Positions 49,741 to 58,926 of a stretch of 64,000 nucleotides of DNA are shown here, one piece after another. Below the pieces are notes generated by a model. It was not told the DNA's origin. It searched no databases and saw nothing but the letters and a program-made list of their open reading frames with translations. Source of the DNA: an uncultured Ignavibacteria bacterium (lineage in GTDB: Bacteria; Bacteroidota; Ignavibacteria; SZUA-365); the NCBI GenBank assembly GCA_913061095.1, contig CAJXVM010000002.1, forward strand, positions 1 through 64,000, written 5' to 3'. Both the position numbers and the translations under genes were made by a program. Position 1 is the stretch's first letter. Each line of letters starts with the position of its first letter.

Positions 49741-51171
49741 TTATCCGTTCGGATCCTGCAGTTTGTATTCCTTGACCTTCGTCTGCATGGTCTTGTAATC
49801 GATCTGCAGCAGCCGGGCCGCCTTGGCCTTGTTCCAGCCGGTGCGTTTGAGGGTTTCGAGCAGAATCTGCCGTTCGATCTGGGCGGTATGCTTCCGCATG
49901 TGGTCTTTCAGTGCAATGCCCTGTTCGATGGTGCTTTCATCGATATCCGCAGCGGCCATGACGGCCCGAACGCGGCGTTCGGCGTCCATTTCGAGGTCCA
50001 GCTGTTCGGCACTGATGTACTCCTCCGCGAAAAGCACGGATCGGCGCACGACAGCTTTCAGCTGCGCGACGTTGCCCGGCCAGTTATAGGCGAGCATTTT
50101 TTCGAGCGCCTTCGGCGTGAACCCGCCGATGTTTTTATTGAGTTCCTTGTTGCTGAACTGGAGAAAGCGGCTGGCGAGGTATGGAATATCCGTCTTGCGC
50201 TCTCGCAGTGACGGTACATGCAGACTGTACTCGTTGAGACGGTAGAACAGATCCGGACGAAACCGTTTCTGTTCGATCTGTTCGTGGAGATCCTTGCTTG
50301 TGGACGCGATGATGCGGACATCCGCCGGGATCGGTGTTTCATTTCCGAGGCGAACGACCGACTTGGTCTGCAGGACATGCAGGAGGCGACTCTGCAGTGC
50401 AACCGGGAAGGCCGAGATTTCATCGAGAAACAGCGTCCCGCCGTGTGCAGATTCGAACTTGCCCGGTTTACTGCGTTCCGCGTCAGGGAACGCTCCGCGC
50501 TCATATCCGAACAGTTCCTGCTCGAGGACGTCCTCGGCAAGTGCATCACAGGCGATGGTCACGAACGGCTTTTTGTGCCGGTCGCTTTCGTCATGAAGAT
50601 TCTGGGCCACCAGTGCCTTGCCGGTACCGGGTTCACCGATAAGCAGCACATCGAACGGTGCTTTCGCAATCTGCTTCAGGGAGTTCGTCAGTTCCACGAT
50701 CACATCGCTGGCTCCCATCAGCTGCAGCAGTTCGTCCTTCTGTCCGACATGGTCTGCCTGAAAACTCTGAAATTTCCGGCGCATGAGACGCTCATCCAGG
50801 GCCCGGCCGAGAACCTCGAGAATTTCTCCGGTCTCGAACGGTTTCGCAACGTAATCAAACGCCCCGGCCTTCATGGCATCCACGGCACCCGGCACCCCCG
50901 CGAGCGCAGTCATGAATATCACGGGGATTTCCGGATTGATGCGCCGCATCCTGAGCATGACTTCCCGCCCGTCCATACCCGGCATGAGAATATCGAGTAC
51001 GACGGCGTCCGGTTCCTCCTTGCGAAACTGGTCAAGCGCCGATTCGCCATCGAACGCCATCATGGCTGCAAGTCCCTGCCGTTCGAACAGCCGTTTGAGG
51101 AGCACGCACATGTCTTCCTCATCGTCCACGATCAGGATTTTCATGCCGCGATACTTGTCAAGGCCTTCCAT
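49741..51171 (-). CDS. NtrC-like response regulator with degenerate GAFTGA loop
   Basis: A 476-residue protein: receiver domain (~10-125, phospho-acceptor D60), AAA+ domain (~150-385; Walker A GEPGTGKA at 179-186, Walker B GGTLFLDEI) and Fis-type HTH (RTGWNKAKAARLLQIDYKTMQTKVKEYKL). The loop that contacts sigma-54 should read GAFTGA but is GAFPDA (226-231), and Lys-Glu after the P-loop is Lys-Ala. Both are conserved in the second regulator at 57015. It may therefore not open sigma-54 promoters and could act as a binding partner or repressor. Start ATG 51171 follows AGGAG by 8 bases. Divergent from the redox operon at 51653. Confidence 0.88.
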   Translation of the reverse strand: MEGLDKYRGMKILIVDDEEDMCVLLKRLFERQGLAAMMAFDGESALDQFRKEEPDAVVLDILMPGMDGREVMLRMRRINPEIPVIFMTALAGVPGAVDAMKAGAFDYVAKPFETGEILEVLGRALDERLMRRKFQSFQADHVGQKDELLQLMGASDVIVELTNSLKQIAKAPFDVLLIGEPGTGKALVAQNLHDESDRHKKPFVTIACDALAEDVLEQELFGYERGAFPDAERSKPGKFESAHGGTLFLDEISAFPVALQSRLLHVLQTKSVVRLGNETPIPADVRIIASTSKDLHEQIEQKRFRPDLFYRLNEYSLHVPSLRERKTDIPYLASRFLQFSNKELNKNIGGFTPKALEKMLAYNWPGNVAQLKAVVRRSVLFAEEYISAEQLDLEMDAERRVRAVMAAADIDESTIEQGIALKDHMRKHTAQIERQILLETLKRTGWNKAKAARLLQIDYKTMQTKVKEYKLQDPNG

Positions 51172-51275
51172 GCCGTCATCTCCTTCTGTCACGGATGCAA
51201 CAAAATACGGGATAAACGGACCGGATTCAATCATGGCAGGGAAAAAATTCCATAGATTTCACTCCACATATCGGA

Positions 51276-51570: not shown

Positions 51571-51587
51571 TTGGTACGATTGTTGAT
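51571..51587 (+). promoter_or_regulatory. Sigma-54-type promoter for the GcvH/ferredoxin/NrfD operon
   Basis: TTGGTACG-N4-TTGAT compared with consensus TTGGCACG-N4-TTGCW: 12 of 13 defined positions fit apart from C-to-T in the -24 box and C-to-A in the -12 box. A start near 51598 gives a ~55-base leader to ATG 51653 with GGAG at 51642-51645. Consistent with two NtrC-like regulators nearby; unverified. Confidence 0.45.
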
Positions 51588-51652: not shown

Positions 51653-52327
51653 ATGGTCGCATTATTTGTCATCCTCTTTGTCGCGCTCCTGCTCGGCATC
51701 GATCTGTTCATTCAGGCACGCAGCCGCAGATATCCCATCATGGCTGCCGCGCCGAGAACAGCAATTGCGCCACAGGCGCGAGAATCGGTTCGCATCCCGA
51801 AAAGTGTATTCTTCCATCCCGGTCATACCTGGGCACGCATGCAGGATGGTGAGCATCTGGAAATCGGCGTCGACGATTTCATCCAGAAAGCTCTCGGCGG
51901 AATTGACGGTATCGAGCTTCCCGCCGCCGGCGAGTTCGTGCGGCAGGGAGATCCTGTCATCACGCTCAATCATGAAGGACGGAAAGTCCGTCTCGTCGCA
52001 CCGGTCAGCGGGTATGTTCGCTCGGTGAATGCCGACGCGGTGGAAAACCCCGGTCTGGTCTCAGAGAATCCCTATCGAGAAGGCTGGCTGATGATGATCG
52101 AGCCGGCGGAGCTGGCAGCGAATCTTTCAATTCTCCGCGTCGCCGAAAGCGCCGTTTCATGGGTCAAGGAAGAGATCAAGCGCTTCCGCGATTTCCTCGG
52201 CGCAAGCATGCCACAGCCCGCAGCCGTGGGCGAGGCGATGTTCGAGGGCGGCGCACCGGTCGCCGGAGCACTGGAACATCTCGATGAAACGCATCTGCAG
52301 GATTTCGAACAGCAGTTCCTGCGCTGA
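51653..52327 (+). CDS. Membrane-anchored GcvH-like protein without the lipoyl lysine
   Basis: A 224-residue protein. One N-terminal TM (MVALFVILFVALLLGIDLFI) and a short basic stretch precede a GcvH-fold domain (~60-150): HPGHTWARMQDGEHLEIGVDDF and RQGDPVITLNHEGRKVRLVAPVSG. Against E. coli GcvH this aligns without gaps, and the lipoyl-lysine position is Gly (Lys lies two residues further on). A C-terminal helix-rich tail follows. It therefore probably does not carry lipoate. The start at 51653 has a GGAG site, whereas the frame opens at 51602. First gene of the redox operon. Confidence 0.8.
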   Translation: MVALFVILFVALLLGIDLFIQARSRRYPIMAAAPRTAIAPQARESVRIPKSVFFHPGHTWARMQDGEHLEIGVDDFIQKALGGIDGIELPAAGEFVRQGDPVITLNHEGRKVRLVAPVSGYVRSVNADAVENPGLVSENPYREGWLMMIEPAELAANLSILRVAESAVSWVKEEIKRFRDFLGASMPQPAAVGEAMFEGGAPVAGALEHLDETHLQDFEQQFLR

Positions 52328-52377
52328 GTCCTGTTTCCATCGACTGACTGTTCCATTGCCATCAAAGGAGATTCACC

Positions 52378-53283
52378 ATGTCACATGCCATTCTCGTCGA
52401 TTTGACGGAATGCGTCGGCTGCGGCGCCTGCAGGGATGCCTGCCAGCAGATCCATCATTTCCCGCAGGTTGAAGCCACGAGCCTCGACGCACAGAATTTC
52501 ACGACCCTCCGGCTGTATGAAAATCCCGAGAGCGGGACGGAAACATACATCCGCCAGATGTGCCAGCACTGCAAGGAACCGGCCTGCGCTTCCGCATGCC
52601 TTGTCGGCGCGCTGGAAAAGACCAAAGACGGCGCGGTCACCTGGGACGCCAACAAGTGCATCGGCTGCCGCTACTGCATGCTCGCCTGCCCGTTCGATAT
52701 CCCGAAATACGAATGGGGCAGCAATAATCCGAAAGTGCGCAAGTGCACCATGTGCTACCAGGAACGGCATGTGCGCGAAGACTACGAGGTCGACGACGCC
52801 GGATATGTCATTGACCGCAAGGGCAAACGGGTCACGGTCGACGGCCGCGAAATTACCGCCGAGGAGCGCGATACCATCCTGGAAATGACCACAAATTACG
52901 AGGGCAATCGCGCCTCCGCCTGCAGCGTGGCCTGTCCGATGGAAGCCACGATCTTCGGCGAGCGCAGCGAATTGGTCGCCGAAGCGCAGCGACGCATCCG
53001 CGAAAACCCCGATAGCTATGTCCACAAGGTGTACGGCCTCAAGGAGGTCGGTGGCACTTCGGTGTTCTACCTCTCGAACGTCTCGTTCGAAAGTCTCGGC
53101 TTCCGCACGAAACTCGAGGAAACCCCGCTGCCGGAGAAGACCTGGCGCGTGCTCGAGAAGATCCCCGATATCGTCGTTACGGCCGGTGTCGCACTCGGCG
53201 CTGTCTACTGGATCACCAATCGCCGTGAAGAAGTCAGGCGCTTCGAAGACGAGAAAAAGAATCGCATCAAAACGAAATCCTGA
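52378..53283 (+). CDS. Four-cluster [4Fe-4S] ferredoxin subunit, HybA/NrfC-like, with C-terminal TM
   Basis: A 301-residue iron-sulfur protein. Sixteen Cys fall into four groups: C12/C15/C18/C22, C62/C65/C70/C74, C94/C97/C100/C104 and C123/C126/C182/C186, the layout of HybA/NrfC/PsrB electron-transfer subunits. It has no Tat signal, so it should face the cytoplasm, and a C-terminal hydrophobic segment (IPDIVVTAGVALGAVYWI, ~260-278) that anchors it, as in HybA. It passes electrons between the NrfD-type membrane subunit encoded 10 bases downstream and an unknown partner. Starts 50 bases after the GcvH-like gene. Confidence 0.9.
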   Translation: MSHAILVDLTECVGCGACRDACQQIHHFPQVEATSLDAQNFTTLRLYENPESGTETYIRQMCQHCKEPACASACLVGALEKTKDGAVTWDANKCIGCRYCMLACPFDIPKYEWGSNNPKVRKCTMCYQERHVREDYEVDDAGYVIDRKGKRVTVDGREITAEERDTILEMTTNYEGNRASACSVACPMEATIFGERSELVAEAQRRIRENPDSYVHKVYGLKEVGGTSVFYLSNVSFESLGFRTKLEETPLPEKTWRVLEKIPDIVVTAGVALGAVYWITNRREEVRRFEDEKKNRIKTKS

Positions 53284-53293
53284 GGAGAACACC

Positions 53294-54511
53294 ATGAAAA
53301 ACGCATTGCAGAACATCACATTCTGGAAAGTGGTTGCCGCGGTATTCCTCCTCGGAGGACTCACCGCCGCGATCGTGCGATTCGGCTGGGGCCTCGGCGC
53401 CGCCACGAATCTCTCTGATATCACACCCTGGGGACTCTGGATCGGATTCGACGTCGTTACGGGCGTCGGTCTCGCCGCGGGCGGATTCACCCTTGCGGGA
53501 ATCGTCTACATATTCAACCTCAAACGTTTCAAACCCATTGTGCGGCCGGCGATTCTGACGGCCTTCATGGGCTACTGTCTCGTGATCGTCGGACTCCTGT
53601 TCGATCTCGGCCGCCCGTGGTCGATCTGGCATGCTCTCATCTATCAGAATCCGCATTCCGTCCTCTTCGAGGTCGCCATGTGCGTCATGCTGTATACGAC
53701 CGTACTGGCACTGGAATTCTCCCCGGTCGTCCTGGAACGGTTCCGCATGAAGCGCGCGCTGAAAATCGTCAAGGCCATCACGATCCCGCTTATCGTGCTG
53801 GGCATCCTGCTGTCGATGCTGCATCAGTCTTCCCTTGGCTCGCTGTATCTCATCGTCCCGCAGAAAATGCATCCCTTCTGGTATTCTCCCATGCTTCCGG
53901 TGTTCTTCTTCGTGAGCGCCGTGGCGGTCGGACTTGGCATGACCATCCTCGAATCCTATCTCAGCGCCAGGGCCTTCCAGAAGACACTGGAAACACCGCT
54001 GCTGCGCGATCTCGCACGCATCATGATCGGCATCCTGCTGGTGTATTTCACTGCCCGTTTCATCGACCTGCTCCGCCGCGACGTCCTTCACCTCGTGTTC
54101 GAGAGCTCCTTCGAGACGGCCATGCTCTGGCTTGAAGTCGCCCTGATGCTGTTCATTCCCCTGCTGCTCTTCAACATCAAGAACTGGGGGCGCACACGCC
54201 AGGGTCTGTTTTTCACCGCGTTCTCCATGGTGCTCGGATTTATCACGAACCGGCTAAATGTCACCATGACATCCCTGGAACGCTACTACCAGCAGAATTT
54301 CGGCGTAACGTACTTCCCGTCCATCGGAGAGCTTGCCGTGACGATCGCCATCGTCACCGCGGGATTCGTGCTGTTTGCCCTGGCTGTCAAGTACCTGCCC
54401 ATCTTCCCTCATCATGAGGAGGAGACCGTGCTGCGTTTCGATAACGCTGCGGAGCGATCACCGTCGCCGCAGATCTCCGGAAAGCCCGCGGCAGAACTTC
54501 AGCGGCACTGA
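53294..54511 (+). CDS. NrfD/HybB-type quinone-reactive membrane subunit
   Basis: A 405-residue integral protein with nine to ten predicted TMs. LVIVGLLFDLGRPWSIWHALIYQNPHSVLFEVAMCVMLYTTVLALEFSP and SMLHQSSLGSLYLIVP are signature stretches of HybB. Such subunits exchange electrons with (mena)quinol and have no haem. GAGGAG precedes the ATG by 6 bases. With the ferredoxin it forms a HybA-HybB pair, but no [NiFe] or molybdopterin catalytic subunit lies in the window. A charged C-terminal tail (~365-405) is in the cytoplasm. Confidence 0.92.
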   Translation: MKNALQNITFWKVVAAVFLLGGLTAAIVRFGWGLGAATNLSDITPWGLWIGFDVVTGVGLAAGGFTLAGIVYIFNLKRFKPIVRPAILTAFMGYCLVIVGLLFDLGRPWSIWHALIYQNPHSVLFEVAMCVMLYTTVLALEFSPVVLERFRMKRALKIVKAITIPLIVLGILLSMLHQSSLGSLYLIVPQKMHPFWYSPMLPVFFFVSAVAVGLGMTILESYLSARAFQKTLETPLLRDLARIMIGILLVYFTARFIDLLRRDVLHLVFESSFETAMLWLEVALMLFIPLLLFNIKNWGRTRQGLFFTAFSMVLGFITNRLNVTMTSLERYYQQNFGVTYFPSIGELAVTIAIVTAGFVLFALAVKYLPIFPHHEEETVLRFDNAAERSPSPQISGKPAAELQRH

Positions 54512-54537
54512 TCACGCACCAATTCACCTGAAAGGAA

Positions 54538-55332
54538 ATGGTCAGCAGCATGAGCATCATCATTGAAAAACAGCAGAACGTATGCATCTGGACAGAAGCG
54601 GGTGTGCTGAACAACAAGCTCTGCGACCGGGACTTCCATTGTGAACAATGCCCGCTCGATGCCGCGCTGCGAGACCATTCAGATACATGCCGGGAGGAGG
54701 AACCCGATCTTGAATATGTCGACCTGCCACTGATCATGGACGAAGAGCTGCCGGAACACGTCAAACCGCTCCTGGCCCCCTTCCGCTCCCTGACGATCTG
54801 TACCGACCTGCGGTACTCGAGTCGACATGTCTGGATACGGCTCCTCCCGACCGGCATGGTCCGCTGCGGTCTGGATGCCTTCGCGGCAGCCCTGCTGCCC
54901 GACGACAGCCAGATCGTCGTACTTGCCAACAGATCCTTCGTGCGGGAAGGGGAAGAATTCGGATGGGTCTATGGTGGGAACAATGCCATTCCCCTTTCCG
55001 CACCCGTGTCCGGAACCGTCGTGTGCAGGAACATGGATCTCCTGTACGCGACGGATTCCGTGCGCACCAGGCCCTACGAAAAAGGCTGCATTGTCACCCT
55101 CGCCCCTGAAGTCGGCGCACTCGCCACCGCCCGGCTCTCTTCCCCACGGAATCACATCCGCCGAATCCGCCGGCGCGGTCGCGACCTCAACGACCGGCTC
55201 AGAAAGCTCATGACTTCCCCGGAACTCGGTCTCTGCCTCAACGACGGCGGTGAACCCGTCTCCTCGATCGAAGAACTGTTCGGCGAACAGCGCTACTGGG
55301 AGCTGCTCAGGAAATTCGTTGGCGGAGAATAA
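54538..55332 (+). CDS. GcvH-like protein with Cys-rich N-terminus, lacking the lipoyl lysine
   Basis: A 264-residue soluble protein. The N-terminal ~45 residues contain KLCDRDFHCEQCPLDAAL (C-x5-C-x2-C plus an earlier VCIW Cys), probably a metal or Fe-S site; a GcvH-fold domain follows at ~85-185 (YSSRHVWIRLLPTGMVRCGLDAF; VREGEEFGWVYGGNNAIPLSAPVSGTVV). Aligned with GcvH, the lipoyl-lysine position is Asn. A charged helical tail follows (RRIRRRGRDLNDRLRKL). AAAGGAA precedes the ATG at 54538; ATG 54550 is an alternative. Similar proteins occur next to NrfD/ferredoxin pairs in anaerobes; their role is not established. Confidence 0.78.
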   Translation: MVSSMSIIIEKQQNVCIWTEAGVLNNKLCDRDFHCEQCPLDAALRDHSDTCREEEPDLEYVDLPLIMDEELPEHVKPLLAPFRSLTICTDLRYSSRHVWIRLLPTGMVRCGLDAFAAALLPDDSQIVVLANRSFVREGEEFGWVYGGNNAIPLSAPVSGTVVCRNMDLLYATDSVRTRPYEKGCIVTLAPEVGALATARLSSPRNHIRRIRRRGRDLNDRLRKLMTSPELGLCLNDGGEPVSSIEELFGEQRYWELLRKFVGGE

Positions 55333-55343
55333 GGTCCGGAACC

Positions 55344-55372
55344 TTGATGGTTGATGCGGACTTTCCTAGTTT
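55344..55372 (+). promoter_or_regulatory. Possible sigma-70 promoter before the histidine kinase gene
   Basis: TTGATG (55344) and TAGTTT (55367) with a 17-base spacer, 38 bases before ATG 55411. Either box has two mismatches to consensus, so the kinase and regulator could have a weak independent promoter or simply be transcribed with the upstream genes. Confidence 0.3.
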
Positions 55373-55410
55373 AGCAGACAGGCTCCCTGTACTGCCCGGT
55401 GGACATTCCC

Positions 55411-57018
55411 ATGAGCTTCTTTCACTCACTCAGTTTCAAGATCATCGCGATCATCTTCATCGCGCTGCTGGCCATCATGATCGGCGTGAACTATCTGCAC
55501 GTGGAGATGCAGAGCACCTTTTTCGAGCACACGATTTACAACTGTGCCGAACGGGCAAGCGCCTTCTCGAAACTGGCGCTCATGGACGGGATGCAGGAGA
55601 ACGACCGGGAGCAGATCGCGAGTACCATCGAGGAGATGAGCAAAACGCCCTCCATCGACGTCATTCGCATTTACGACAAGAAGGGCATGATTCGTTACTC
55701 ATCAGCCCGGGAAGAAACAGGAAAGATCGTCGACATGCGCGCGGATGCATGTACCATGTGCCACGGTGAATCGACGGAGTTCACCGAGACAAGCAGTGAT
55801 CAATATGTGCGCATTTATGATTCCCCGCGCGGACACCGTACGCTGGGGCTGATCACCCCGATCAGCAACCGGCAAAGCTGCTACAACGCCGACTGCCATG
55901 CGCACAATGCCTCCCAGACTGTACTCGGCGTGCTCGACGTGCAGATGTCACTCGAGGAAATCGACAGCCAGGTCGAGAAGCTCCAGGGGATCGTGCTGAT
56001 CACCTCCCTTCTCACGTTTCTGGTGCTTGCCGGTGCCTCAGGCGTTTTCATCTATTTTTACGTCCATCGACCGGTATCATCCCTGATCAGAGGCACGCGC
56101 GCCCTGGCGTCGGGCGACCTGTCGCATACCATCGAACTTGATCGGAAAGACGAGCTCGGCCAGCTCGTCAAGGCCTTCAATTCCATGTCGGATGAGCTGC
56201 GGGAGGCCAAGTCGGAGCTGGTCAAATGGTCGAACACGCTCGAAGACAAAGTAGCCGAGAAAACGCAGCAGCTCAACAAGGTCCAGGTGCAGATTCTGCA
56301 CATGGAGAAGATGGCGTCACTCGGAAAGCTCAGTTCTGTCATCGCGCATGAGCTCAACAACCCGCTCGCCGGCATCCTGACCTACGCCCGCCTCATACAG
56401 AAGCGCCTTTCGAAGGGCGAGACCGATCCGGACCGCTGTGAGACAATGGTAAACGAAATCACGCTTATTGCTGACGAAGCACGGCGCTGCGGCGATATCG
56501 TGAAGAATCTTCTGTTTTTCGCACGCGGGCGGGAAGGCGAATACCGGCAGGCGGATCTCAACGATGTCATCGAGAAGTCCATCAAGCTGGTCCAGCACAA
56601 GATCGATCTCTACGAGATCAACCTCGAAGTGCAGCTCCCGCCGGATCCCACAGTTGCCACCTGCGACCAGAACCAGATGCAGCAGGCCGTGCTCGCCATG
56701 ATCATCAACGCCATCGAGGCCATGCCGGATGGCGGGCGGCTCTCGATTTCACTCGCACGCGAGAATCAGACAGCATCGATCCACGTCAGTGACACCGGTG
56801 TCGGCATCTCACGGGAAGATCAGCAGAGAATCTTCGAGCCGTTTTTCACAACCAAGGAAGAAGGGCACGGAACGGGCCTCGGACTTTCGGTTGCATACGG
56901 CATCATTCAGAGTCATTCGGGAAAAATCACCGTCGACAGTGCGCTCGGCAAGGGAACGACATTCGTAATCACGATTCCGCTTCACGGTCCTGATCAACAC
57001 GCGCAGGAGAAGGCATGA
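55411..57018 (+). CDS. Sensor histidine kinase with two haem-type motifs in the periplasmic domain
   Basis: A 535-residue kinase. TM1 ~10-28; periplasmic sensor ~30-190 with C114-T-M-C117-H118 (CxxCH, covalent haem c) and C157-x4-C162-H163 (a CX4CH variant, also used in multihaem cytochromes); TM2 ~193-217; HAMP ~218-270; coiled coil; HisKA with H313 in IAHELNNPLAGIL; HATPase with N, G1 (DTGVGIS) and G2 (GHGTGLGL) boxes. Two haems would let it sense redox potential, oxygen or NO, or the quinone pool. ATG 55411 fits the ribosome site GGTGG; a GTG at 55399 is the frame limit. Its stop overlaps the regulator start (ATGA). Confidence 0.87.
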   Translation: MSFFHSLSFKIIAIIFIALLAIMIGVNYLHVEMQSTFFEHTIYNCAERASAFSKLALMDGMQENDREQIASTIEEMSKTPSIDVIRIYDKKGMIRYSSAREETGKIVDMRADACTMCHGESTEFTETSSDQYVRIYDSPRGHRTLGLITPISNRQSCYNADCHAHNASQTVLGVLDVQMSLEEIDSQVEKLQGIVLITSLLTFLVLAGASGVFIYFYVHRPVSSLIRGTRALASGDLSHTIELDRKDELGQLVKAFNSMSDELREAKSELVKWSNTLEDKVAEKTQQLNKVQVQILHMEKMASLGKLSSVIAHELNNPLAGILTYARLIQKRLSKGETDPDRCETMVNEITLIADEARRCGDIVKNLLFFARGREGEYRQADLNDVIEKSIKLVQHKIDLYEINLEVQLPPDPTVATCDQNQMQQAVLAMIINAIEAMPDGGRLSISLARENQTASIHVSDTGVGISREDQQRIFEPFFTTKEEGHGTGLGLSVAYGIIQSHSGKITVDSALGKGTTFVITIPLHGPDQHAQEKA

Positions 57019-58382
57019 CAGCATTCGATCCATCGGACATTACCATCATGATCGTCGACGATGAGCTGAGCGTCCGACAGTCGCTCGAGGCATGGTTCCA
57101 GGATGACGGCTATTCCATGCTGACCGCGGAGAACGCGGCGGAAGCACTCAAAAAACTGCAGGAGCATCAGATCGATATCATCCTGCTCGACATCAAAATG
57201 CCAGGCATGGATGGACTCGCCCTGCAGGATCGTATCCGGGAATTCAACAAGGATGTCATCATCATTATCATCACGGCGTTCGCCACGGTCGACACCGCGG
57301 TCCGCGCTCTGAAAGCCGGTGCGTTCGATTACACGACCAAACCGGTGGATCCCGACGAGCTCTCACATCTCGTCCGCAATGCCGTCGACCGCATCCGCCT
57401 CGAGCGCGAGAACACTGCCCTGCGCGAAAGCATTGACTCTCTGCAGTTCGTCGACAACATCATCGGTGATAGTCCGGAGATGCAGCGCGTCCTGGAGATG
57501 GTCAGGACCGTCGCTCCGACCGATTCGACCGTGCTCATCCTCGGAGAGAGCGGCACCGGGAAGGAGCTGATCGCGCGGGCGATTCACATGAACAGCCCCC
57601 GGAAATATTTCCCCATCATTCCCGTCAATTGCGGCGCCATTCCAGAGTCACTGATGGAAAGTGAACTTTTCGGTCATGAAAAGGGCGCGTTCACCGGCGC
57701 GCAGTATCGGCGCAAAGGGAAATTTGAAATGGCTCGCGGCGGATCGCTTTTCCTTGACGAAATCGGGACGCTGGGAATGAAATCCCAGGTCGATCTCCTG
57801 CGTGTGCTCGAGGATCGCGAATTCCACCGCGTCGGTGGTGAACGCTCGGTCAAGGCCGACTTCCGTCTGATCTGCGCGACCAACACTGATCTTGAAGAAG
57901 CGGTCAAGAAGGCAATGTTCCGTGAAGACCTGTACTACCGCATCAACGTCTTTACCATCCATCTCCCCCCGCTGCGCGATCGGCGGACCGACATCCCCCT
58001 GCTCGCGAGACATTTCCTGCAGGAACATGCCACCGCGATGAACCGTGACATCAACAGCATCTCCGATGAGGCCATGGACGTACTTCGTGCATATGAATGG
58101 CCCGGGAATGTACGCGAACTGGAGAACGCGATCGAGCGCGCGGTTGTCATCAACAAAAGCGGCACCATCACTCCCGATGATCTTCCCCTGCAGATGTCCG
58201 GCACACCCGCACCGCAGGATGCGGACGGCGACGGTTCACTCGCCGATGTCGAGCGCCGGCATATCAAGCGCATGCTCGACGAGAACAACTGGAATATTTC
58301 CCGTACGGCCGAGTTGCTGCACATCGACCGGGCCACCCTGTACAACAAGATTGAGAAATACGGGCTGAAGCGTCCGGAGTAA
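57015..58382 (+). CDS. Sigma-54-dependent NtrC-family response regulator
   Basis: A 455-residue regulator, partner of the kinase just upstream. Receiver ~10-125 with phospho-acceptor D59; AAA+ ~150-390 with Walker A GESGTGKE (177-184), canonical GAFTGA (224-229) and GGSLFLDEI; C-terminal Fis-type HTH (NNWNISRTAELLHIDRATLYNKIEKYGLKRPE). Everything for sigma-54 activation is intact, unlike in the divergent regulator at 49741. A likely target is the sigma-54-type promoter at 51571, which would make the whole operon self-regulated; unproven. Confidence 0.93.
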   Translation: MTAFDPSDITIMIVDDELSVRQSLEAWFQDDGYSMLTAENAAEALKKLQEHQIDIILLDIKMPGMDGLALQDRIREFNKDVIIIIITAFATVDTAVRALKAGAFDYTTKPVDPDELSHLVRNAVDRIRLERENTALRESIDSLQFVDNIIGDSPEMQRVLEMVRTVAPTDSTVLILGESGTGKELIARAIHMNSPRKYFPIIPVNCGAIPESLMESELFGHEKGAFTGAQYRRKGKFEMARGGSLFLDEIGTLGMKSQVDLLRVLEDREFHRVGGERSVKADFRLICATNTDLEEAVKKAMFREDLYYRINVFTIHLPPLRDRRTDIPLLARHFLQEHATAMNRDINSISDEAMDVLRAYEWPGNVRELENAIERAVVINKSGTITPDDLPLQMSGTPAPQDADGDGSLADVERRHIKRMLDENNWNISRTAELLHIDRATLYNKIEKYGLKRPE

Positions 58383-58392
58383 CCGCTGCGGT

Positions 58393-58926
58393 ATGACGGA
58401 GATCTGTTTCATACCGATGGGTGCGCATCCGCGGGATATCTCGCTCGACATGCTCTGCGAAGAAGTCGAGCGAATCTTGCCCGTGCGCACGCAGCTTCGC
58501 ACGCGTCCCATGGACATCGACTTCGCCCTCGACCCCTCCCGCAAGCAGTACCATTCAACTGAACTCCTCGGCGCACTGCTGGAGCAGAACAGCACGACGG
58601 ATTACAAACTGCTCGGTATCACGCCGTACGATCTTTTCGTCCCCGTCCTCACCTTCGTCTTCGGGCAGGCGCAGGTCAACAATCGCGCAGCGGTGTTCTC
58701 CACCTTCCGCCTGCATAACGAGTTCTACGGTCTGCCCCATGCACAGGACGTCCTGGCCAATCGCTGCCTGAAAGAAGCGCTGCACGAACTGGGACACACC
58801 TTCGGTCTCCGTCACTGTTCGATTCTGCCCTGTGTCATGAATTCCTCCACCTATGTCGAAGACATTGATCTCAAACCTGCGGATTTCTGTTTGCATTGCC
58901 GCGAACATCTGCAGTCCGTAAGTTGA
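58393..58926 (+). CDS. amzA: Archaemetzincin, cytoplasmic zinc metallopeptidase
   Basis: A 177-residue protein carrying the archaemetzincin signature: H131-E-L-G-H135-T-F-G-L-R-H141-C142, C147, M149 (Met-turn) and C166/C169, i.e. HExxHxxGxxHCx4CxM...CxxC. The first zinc is catalytic, the second is bound by the four cysteines. No signal peptide. It is placed 10 bases after the regulator stop and is probably in the same transcript, an unusual neighbour for a redox-sensing operon. Substrates of prokaryotic archaemetzincins are not known. Confidence 0.92.
   Translation: MTEICFIPMGAHPRDISLDMLCEEVERILPVRTQLRTRPMDIDFALDPSRKQYHSTELLGALLEQNSTTDYKLLGITPYDLFVPVLTFVFGQAQVNNRAAVFSTFRLHNEFYGLPHAQDVLANRCLKEALHELGHTFGLRHCSILPCVMNSSTYVEDIDLKPADFCLHCREHLQSVS

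Follow-up and report, generated by a model that had tools for sequence, protein, structure and literature searches.

GcvH-fold proteins without the lipoyl lysine in a conserved redox and two-component operon of an uncultured Ignavibacteria bacterium

The window analysed here is a stretch of 64,000 nt (CAJXVM010000002.1, positions 1-64,000; assembly GCA_913061095.1) from an uncultured Ignavibacteria bacterium of the SZUA-365 lineage. It contains a seven-gene operon encoding, in this order, GLP1, a HybA-type protein with 4x[4Fe-4S], a HybB/NrfD protein, GLP2, a heme-c sensor kinase, a sigma-54 regulator and an archaemetzincin. GLP stands for GcvH-like protein, GLP1 and GLP2 being the first and the second lysine-less GcvH-fold protein of the operon. 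Features lie on the forward strand unless stated otherwise. An earlier note on this DNA, made from the sequence alone, had proposed that both proteins lost the lipoyl lysine and represent a re-purposed GcvH fold.

GcvH fold and lipoyl site of GLP1 and GLP2

GLP1 (51653-52327, 224 amino acids) consists of an N-terminal membrane helix, a complete GcvH domain without the lipoyl lysine and a C-terminal DGG-type tail. GLP2 (54538-55332, 264 amino acids) carries a four-cysteine N-terminal motif, a GcvH domain likewise devoid of the lysine and a DGG tail; its orthologues suggest a start at 54550 instead of the annotated 54538. Both reading frames are intact. Together with the conservation of the operon and of the tail across phyla, this ruled out pseudogene decay.

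Both proteins scored above the cut-off of Pfam GCV_H (PF01597, 22.2 bits), with 67.9 bits for GLP1 and 41.8 bits for GLP2. With the NCBIfam GcvH equivalog TIGR00527 they remained below the cut-off of 115.85 bits (64.9 and 39.1 bits, respectively), and NCBIfam GcvH scores of 72 and 49 bits were obtained against a cut-off of 117. The fold was evaluated with AlphaFold2 models, built from 52 homologues for GLP1 (mean pLDDT 84) and from 37 for GLP2 (mean pLDDT 86). In solved-structure searches, only H-proteins were retrieved at high score. The GLP1 model matched the pea H-protein with Z 19.2 and rmsd 1.4 over all 131 residues, and a TM of 0.93 was found for its structure match; the GLP2 model reached TM-scores of 0.84-0.87 with the best H-proteins. 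The two open reading frames reported earlier, and the fold assigned to them, are thus corroborated.

The lipoyl-lysine position, counted back from the APVSG motif, corresponds to Gly109 in GLP1 (codon 51977-51979) and to Asn148 in GLP2 (codon 54979-54981), the same residues that the earlier note had named. In the models each is located in a two-residue turn at the tip of a hairpin, between strands 101-107 and 110-115 in GLP1 and between strands 140-146 and 149-154 in GLP2. A better structural alignment, with a conserved lysine at the tip in both proteins, was also considered, and the models kept Gly109 and Asn148 at that place. Lys111 of GLP1, which had been pointed out as a possible exposed alternative, lies within the second hairpin strand in the model. 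Residues 86-181 of GLP2 contain no lysine at all, hence no alternative one at the hairpin tip.

The N-termini also agreed with the earlier description of one membrane-anchored protein and one with a CX5CX2C motif. The membrane anchor of GLP1 comprises residues 1-24. The CX5CX2C of GLP2 is present but was an incomplete description, as the full motif contains four conserved cysteines, C-x12-C-x5-C-x2-C (CIWxxAGVLxxKLCDRxFxCExC, 54583-54651). Cys16, Cys29, Cys35 and Cys38 are near-invariant among 37 aligned GLP2-type proteins, and the site is probably metal-binding.

The lysine was counted across homologues, as had been suggested. Sixty relatives were searched, and the 40 stretches and 80 further loci taken gave 168 distinct GcvH-fold domains besides the true GcvHs. 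The site residue was read by profile alignment to a hidden Markov model built from true GcvHs only. It was found to be G in 68 domains, N in 24, D in 19, K in 18, S in 14 and E in 11, with rare others, a set as expected of a beta-turn. True GcvHs carried lysine in 22 out of 22 cases (21 from the same genome group and that of E. coli). The proposed lysine loss therefore stands for GLP1 and GLP2 but is not absolute in the family, and a complete absence was ruled out, since about 11% of the relatives (18/168) have the residue. In a FastTree tree the GLP family was split from GcvH with a support of 0.82, and lysine at the site changed 11 times, which indicates that the lysines of the relatives are sporadic gains. 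At the next position, Lys (35%) and Arg (18%) replace each other across the relatives. HxW, GxD, the P and G of the APVSG motif, two tryptophans and the C-terminal DGG tail, followed by the last helix, are conserved.

The lipoate and glycine-cleavage genes of the same genome were located on other contigs. A lysine-bearing GcvH is encoded by a separate, intact gene on contig C1, GcvT-family genes were found on C35 and C12, and lipoate-ligase-family genes on C22 and C9 only. None of these genes lies on the contig of the window, and the operon itself contains no ligase, GcvT or GcvP gene. The earlier observation that glycine-cleavage and lipoate-ligase genes are missing from the neighbourhood is borne out. 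The same applies to the sHdr genes, of which none was detected among the operon genes by Pfam, Hdr-like genes not having been searched genome-wide.

Redox module, regulatory genes and operon variants

The HybA/HmcB-like protein (52378-53283) has 16 cysteines for four [4Fe-4S] clusters, a hydrophobic segment at about residues 257-280 and no Tat signal. The adjacent gene (53294-54511) encodes a HybB/HmcC-like integral membrane protein of the NrfD family (NrfD, 90.6 bits), whose best NCBIfam matches were HmcC (335.7 bits, cut-off 550) and HybB (313.8 bits, cut-off 450), both below the cut-off. The HybA-type protein also remained below those of HmcB (233.7 against 420 bits) and HybA (184.5 against 263 bits). 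HybA/HybB and HmcB/HmcC are NrfD-type quinone modules (PMC8076601), and the window likewise pairs a 16-Cys HybA-type protein with an NrfD-family membrane protein. It differs from them in the sub-cut-off scores, in the lack of the HybA Tat signal and in the GLPs present in the operon. No hydrogenase, Hmc partner, molybdopterin or cytochrome subunit was found among the operon genes (51653-58926).

The sensor histidine kinase (55399-57018) displays the periplasmic heme-c-type motifs CTMCH and CYNADCH. Among 108 kinases adjoining GLP or archaemetzincin genes, 102 contained CxxCH, and 100 of these also the second motif, CxnCH. Against the heme-c sensor domain PF21563 (Mcp40H-20-like), the kinase scored 17.2 bits (cut-off 27, E 0.0067). 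The next gene (57015-58382) encodes a sigma-54-dependent response regulator with a receiver, an AAA+ domain with GAFTGA and a Fis-type helix-turn-helix. About 80 bp upstream of GLP1, a sigma-54-type promoter-like element, TGGTACGATTGTTGAT, was identified at 51572-51587. With two mismatches, it is not significant in the window alone, where it falls below chance counts. All nine compared members of the family have the element between -79 and -84. Among 62 homologous operons from different phyla, 26 have a match of at least 10/12, each being rare in mononucleotide shuffles. It is this cross-species footprint that supports the window element. The operon's own sigma-54 regulator probably activates it. 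A second sigma-54 response regulator (49741-51234, reverse strand) is divergent and recurs at this position in most loci of the family; it is a possible alternative activator of the operon. No kinase lies beside this regulator in the window.

The gene order is kept throughout the family and, with variation, in the class. No part of the class-wide GLP alignment was conserved well enough to scan a collection with. The archaemetzincin therefore served as bait, with one genome per species and the list ranked by similarity to it. As the bait is itself an operon gene, the fractions describe the archaemetzincin neighbourhood and the sample is biased to loci with this gene. Within these limits, upstream sequence of 7 kb or more was available for 57 loci: kinase and regulator were present in 56, a GLP in 47, HybA plus HybB in 44 and everything in 41. 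Versions of the operon were detected in Bacteroidota, including Ignavibacteria, and in Acidobacteriota, Gemmatimonadota, Planctomycetota, Desulfobacterota and several candidate phyla.

The window form was designated type A. In type B (L064 and L066), two GLPs enclose a multiheme cytochrome, a molybdopterin subunit, HybA and HybB, and the genes of the kinase, the archaemetzincin and the regulator are divergent; in parts this form is like Qrc or alternative complex III. Type C (L059 and L061-L063) consists of a HybA with Tat signal, HybB and a 13-heme cytochrome, then a kinase and two receiver-fused GcvH-like proteins. One of the two fusions is membrane anchored, and the membrane-anchored ones keep receiver-type motifs. 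The fused proteins (L059:9400-10791, L061:8846-10048, L062:8477-10451 and L063:7835-9837) have no DNA-binding output. In Bacteroidales the first GLP is about 560 residues long and is composed of a PBP-like periplasmic domain, one transmembrane helix and the GcvH domain (L152:330-2012, L087:2058-3752). The PBP domain reached the Pfam cut-off in one of the two proteins tested. This layout suggests a cytoplasmic GcvH domain in GLP1 as well.

HybA bears a Tat signal in Bacteroidales and in the receiver-fused form; it has none in the family of the window or in Acidobacteriota. A comparison of the Tat-bearing proteins (L062:3310-4215, L087:3795-4652) with that of the window hints that the membrane side possibly differs within the same system.

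Some other arrangements were also recorded. Cys-rich GLPs of about 315 residues, with a duplicated CPFLxExxVxxC before a degenerate GcvH domain, are encoded at L064:14445-15386 and L070:12575-13528. An AhpC/TSA-type thioredoxin-fold protein lies between two GLP genes at L076:4823-5422. At L120:9884-14006, two archaemetzincin genes lie near each other, and an additional kinase and an additional regulator are encoded there.

Archaemetzincin and the DGG tail

The last gene of the operon (58393-58926) encodes an archaemetzincin of peptidase family M54, scoring 153.9 bits with NCBIfam (cut-off 145). Its zinc motif, HELGHTFGLRHC...C..C, is intact, lies at residue 131 and fits HExxHxxGxxHCx4CxM...CxxC. 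Archaemetzincins have no known substrate, and the inspected members were inactive on standard substrates (PMC3427221). The window enzyme shares their intact zinc and Cys4 motif; what sets it apart is that its gene closes a two-component/redox operon.

The tail of GLP1 carries EGG (52244-52252; family consensus DGG), which the model places in a low-confidence loop ahead of a confidently predicted final helix, and the DGG of GLP2 (55243-55251) is also in a low-confidence loop of the model. DGG was found within the last 75 residues in 132 of 139 GLPs flanking HybA/HybB or a kinase. It was absent in all 13 type C proteins (receiver-fused or receiver-fused-like) taken from relatives within the class and the phylum, and present in all seven type A GLPs from the same search. 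Across about 60 near-complete class genomes, archaemetzincin and a non-fused GLP occurred together in 19, archaemetzincin alone in one and a non-fused GLP alone in none; 13 had type C only and no archaemetzincin. The tail was read directly in most class genomes, the rest being classed by frame length and by a match reaching the tail end. The co-occurrence is significant by a Fisher test that ignores relatedness (p ~1e-14). For the first relatives, the presence of GLP and of archaemetzincin agreed in 53 of 61. Elsewhere in the phylum, archaemetzincin-like genes with much weaker scores occur without GLPs, so the link is not universal.

Since the DGG tail goes together with the archaemetzincin and is missing from the receiver-fused form, it is a candidate substrate or partner of this enzyme, and no more than a candidate. 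A bolder version would make the tail a substrate or docking signal of the archaemetzincin, such that a membrane redox subunit would be proteolysed under the control of the redox signal from the heme kinase, the sister form acting by receiver fusion instead. This is considered doubtful; if true, it would be the first bacterial pathway for archaemetzincins.

Possible role of the lysine-less GcvH fold

The GLPs resemble GcvH in the complete fold, in the HxW and APVSG-type motifs and in passing the Pfam cut-off. They differ in the replaced lipoyl lysine, the NCBIfam scores below cut-off (TIGR00527/NF002270), the transmembrane or four-Cys N-terminus, the DGG tail and the lack of glycine cleavage system genes nearby. 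The LbpA proteins of Hdr-like sulfur oxidation have a strictly conserved lipoyl lysine and dedicated ligases (PMC6067878). In common with the GLPs, these paralogues have the GcvH fold, were recruited to a redox operon and frequently occur there as a pair. By the published definition of LbpA, the GLPs differ, as their site is not lysine and their operon has no ligase or Hdr gene. Because the defining lysine is absent, they are filed neither as GcvH nor as LbpA. The earlier idea of a re-purposed fold holds in that the fold is kept, the lipoyl site is unconserved and the rest is conserved over long range; it was incomplete, lacking the conserved seven-gene operon and the added C-terminal tail.

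On the basis of sequence and models, the GLPs are seen, with somewhat better than even confidence, as lipoate-independent GcvH-fold adaptor or regulatory subunits of a quinone-linked HybA/HybB module wired to its own two-component system. HybB/NrfD in the membrane and the iron-sulfur protein HybA would form a quinone-linked redox module, coupled to a redox-sensing system in which the heme-c kinase would signal to the sigma-54 regulator. GLP1 would be held at the membrane with its GcvH domain probably cytoplasmic, and GLP2 would be soluble, with its cysteine site probably loaded with metal. With the swinging arm no longer needed, the pre-formed hairpin surface may serve for docking between the module, the kinase and regulator, and the archaemetzincin. 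The electron path, the direction of signalling, the formation of such a complex and any regulon wider than the operon are likewise putative. The fusions to a receiver in the sister form and to a PBP-like domain in Bacteroidales indicate that the GcvH-like domain was repeatedly attached to signalling parts.

Several observations weigh against this assignment. At some archaemetzincin loci (L091, L126 and L153), HybA/HybB, kinase and regulator are present and no GLP was detected. In two genomes, twin genes for GcvH-like proteins with the DGG tail lie near neither a redox module nor a kinase (L043:12103-13491, L045:8433-9816). GLP and module can thus occur apart. The distribution of the HybA Tat signal described above makes the membrane side uncertain. 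In addition, gene neighbourhood is no proof of physical interaction.

It could be argued that the GLPs are still carriers of lipoyl or other acyl groups through a shifted lysine, for instance Lys111 in GLP1 or, in some relatives, the +1 lysine, all the more as the genome encodes two lipoate-ligase-type proteins. This was rejected and is regarded as very improbable: the GLP2 hairpin has no lysine, Lys111 is in a strand and not at the tip, the +1 lysine interchanges with arginine, which cannot be lipoylated, and the operon has no ligase, GcvT or GcvP. A purely structural or electron-transferring role in a respiratory complex, the two-component system controlling expression without any physical link, is unlikely but carries more weight. 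The HybA/HybB core, surrounded in sister operons by multiheme cytochrome or molybdopterin subunits, and the sigma-54 promoter agree with it. Lipoyl-like folds without the attachment lysine do exist inside respiratory complexes, namely the barrel-sandwich domains of NqrA and RnfC. These are of a different family from the GLPs, and weak NQRA_N profile similarity was found for one relative only. GLP1 has no redox motif, and the receiver fusions, with a kinase adjacent, suggest a more direct link.

The module may alternatively be chiefly a sensor that reports the quinone redox state to the kinase, with the GLPs as relay and energy conservation not being its job. The window operon offers no catalytic subunit besides HybA/HybB, GLPs and regulatory genes, and the Bacteroidales GLPs bear a periplasmic binding domain, both in line with such a function. 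The catalytic-looking multiheme cytochromes or molybdopterin subunit of the sister operons speak against it, as does the heme-c sensor domain that the kinase already possesses, and this option is judged quite improbable.

No published description of the operon was found in the full-text literature, most subscription papers being outside the reach of the search. As far as found, the gene cluster, which recurs across several bacterial phyla, is apparently undescribed. Annotation of gcvH by Pfam alone can mislabel such genes, as databases would call the GLP genes gcvH. The operon also places archaemetzincins in a defined genomic setting and offers them a candidate partner that can be tested. The GcvH fold appears to be used here without lipoate, in a widespread redox-signalling operon.

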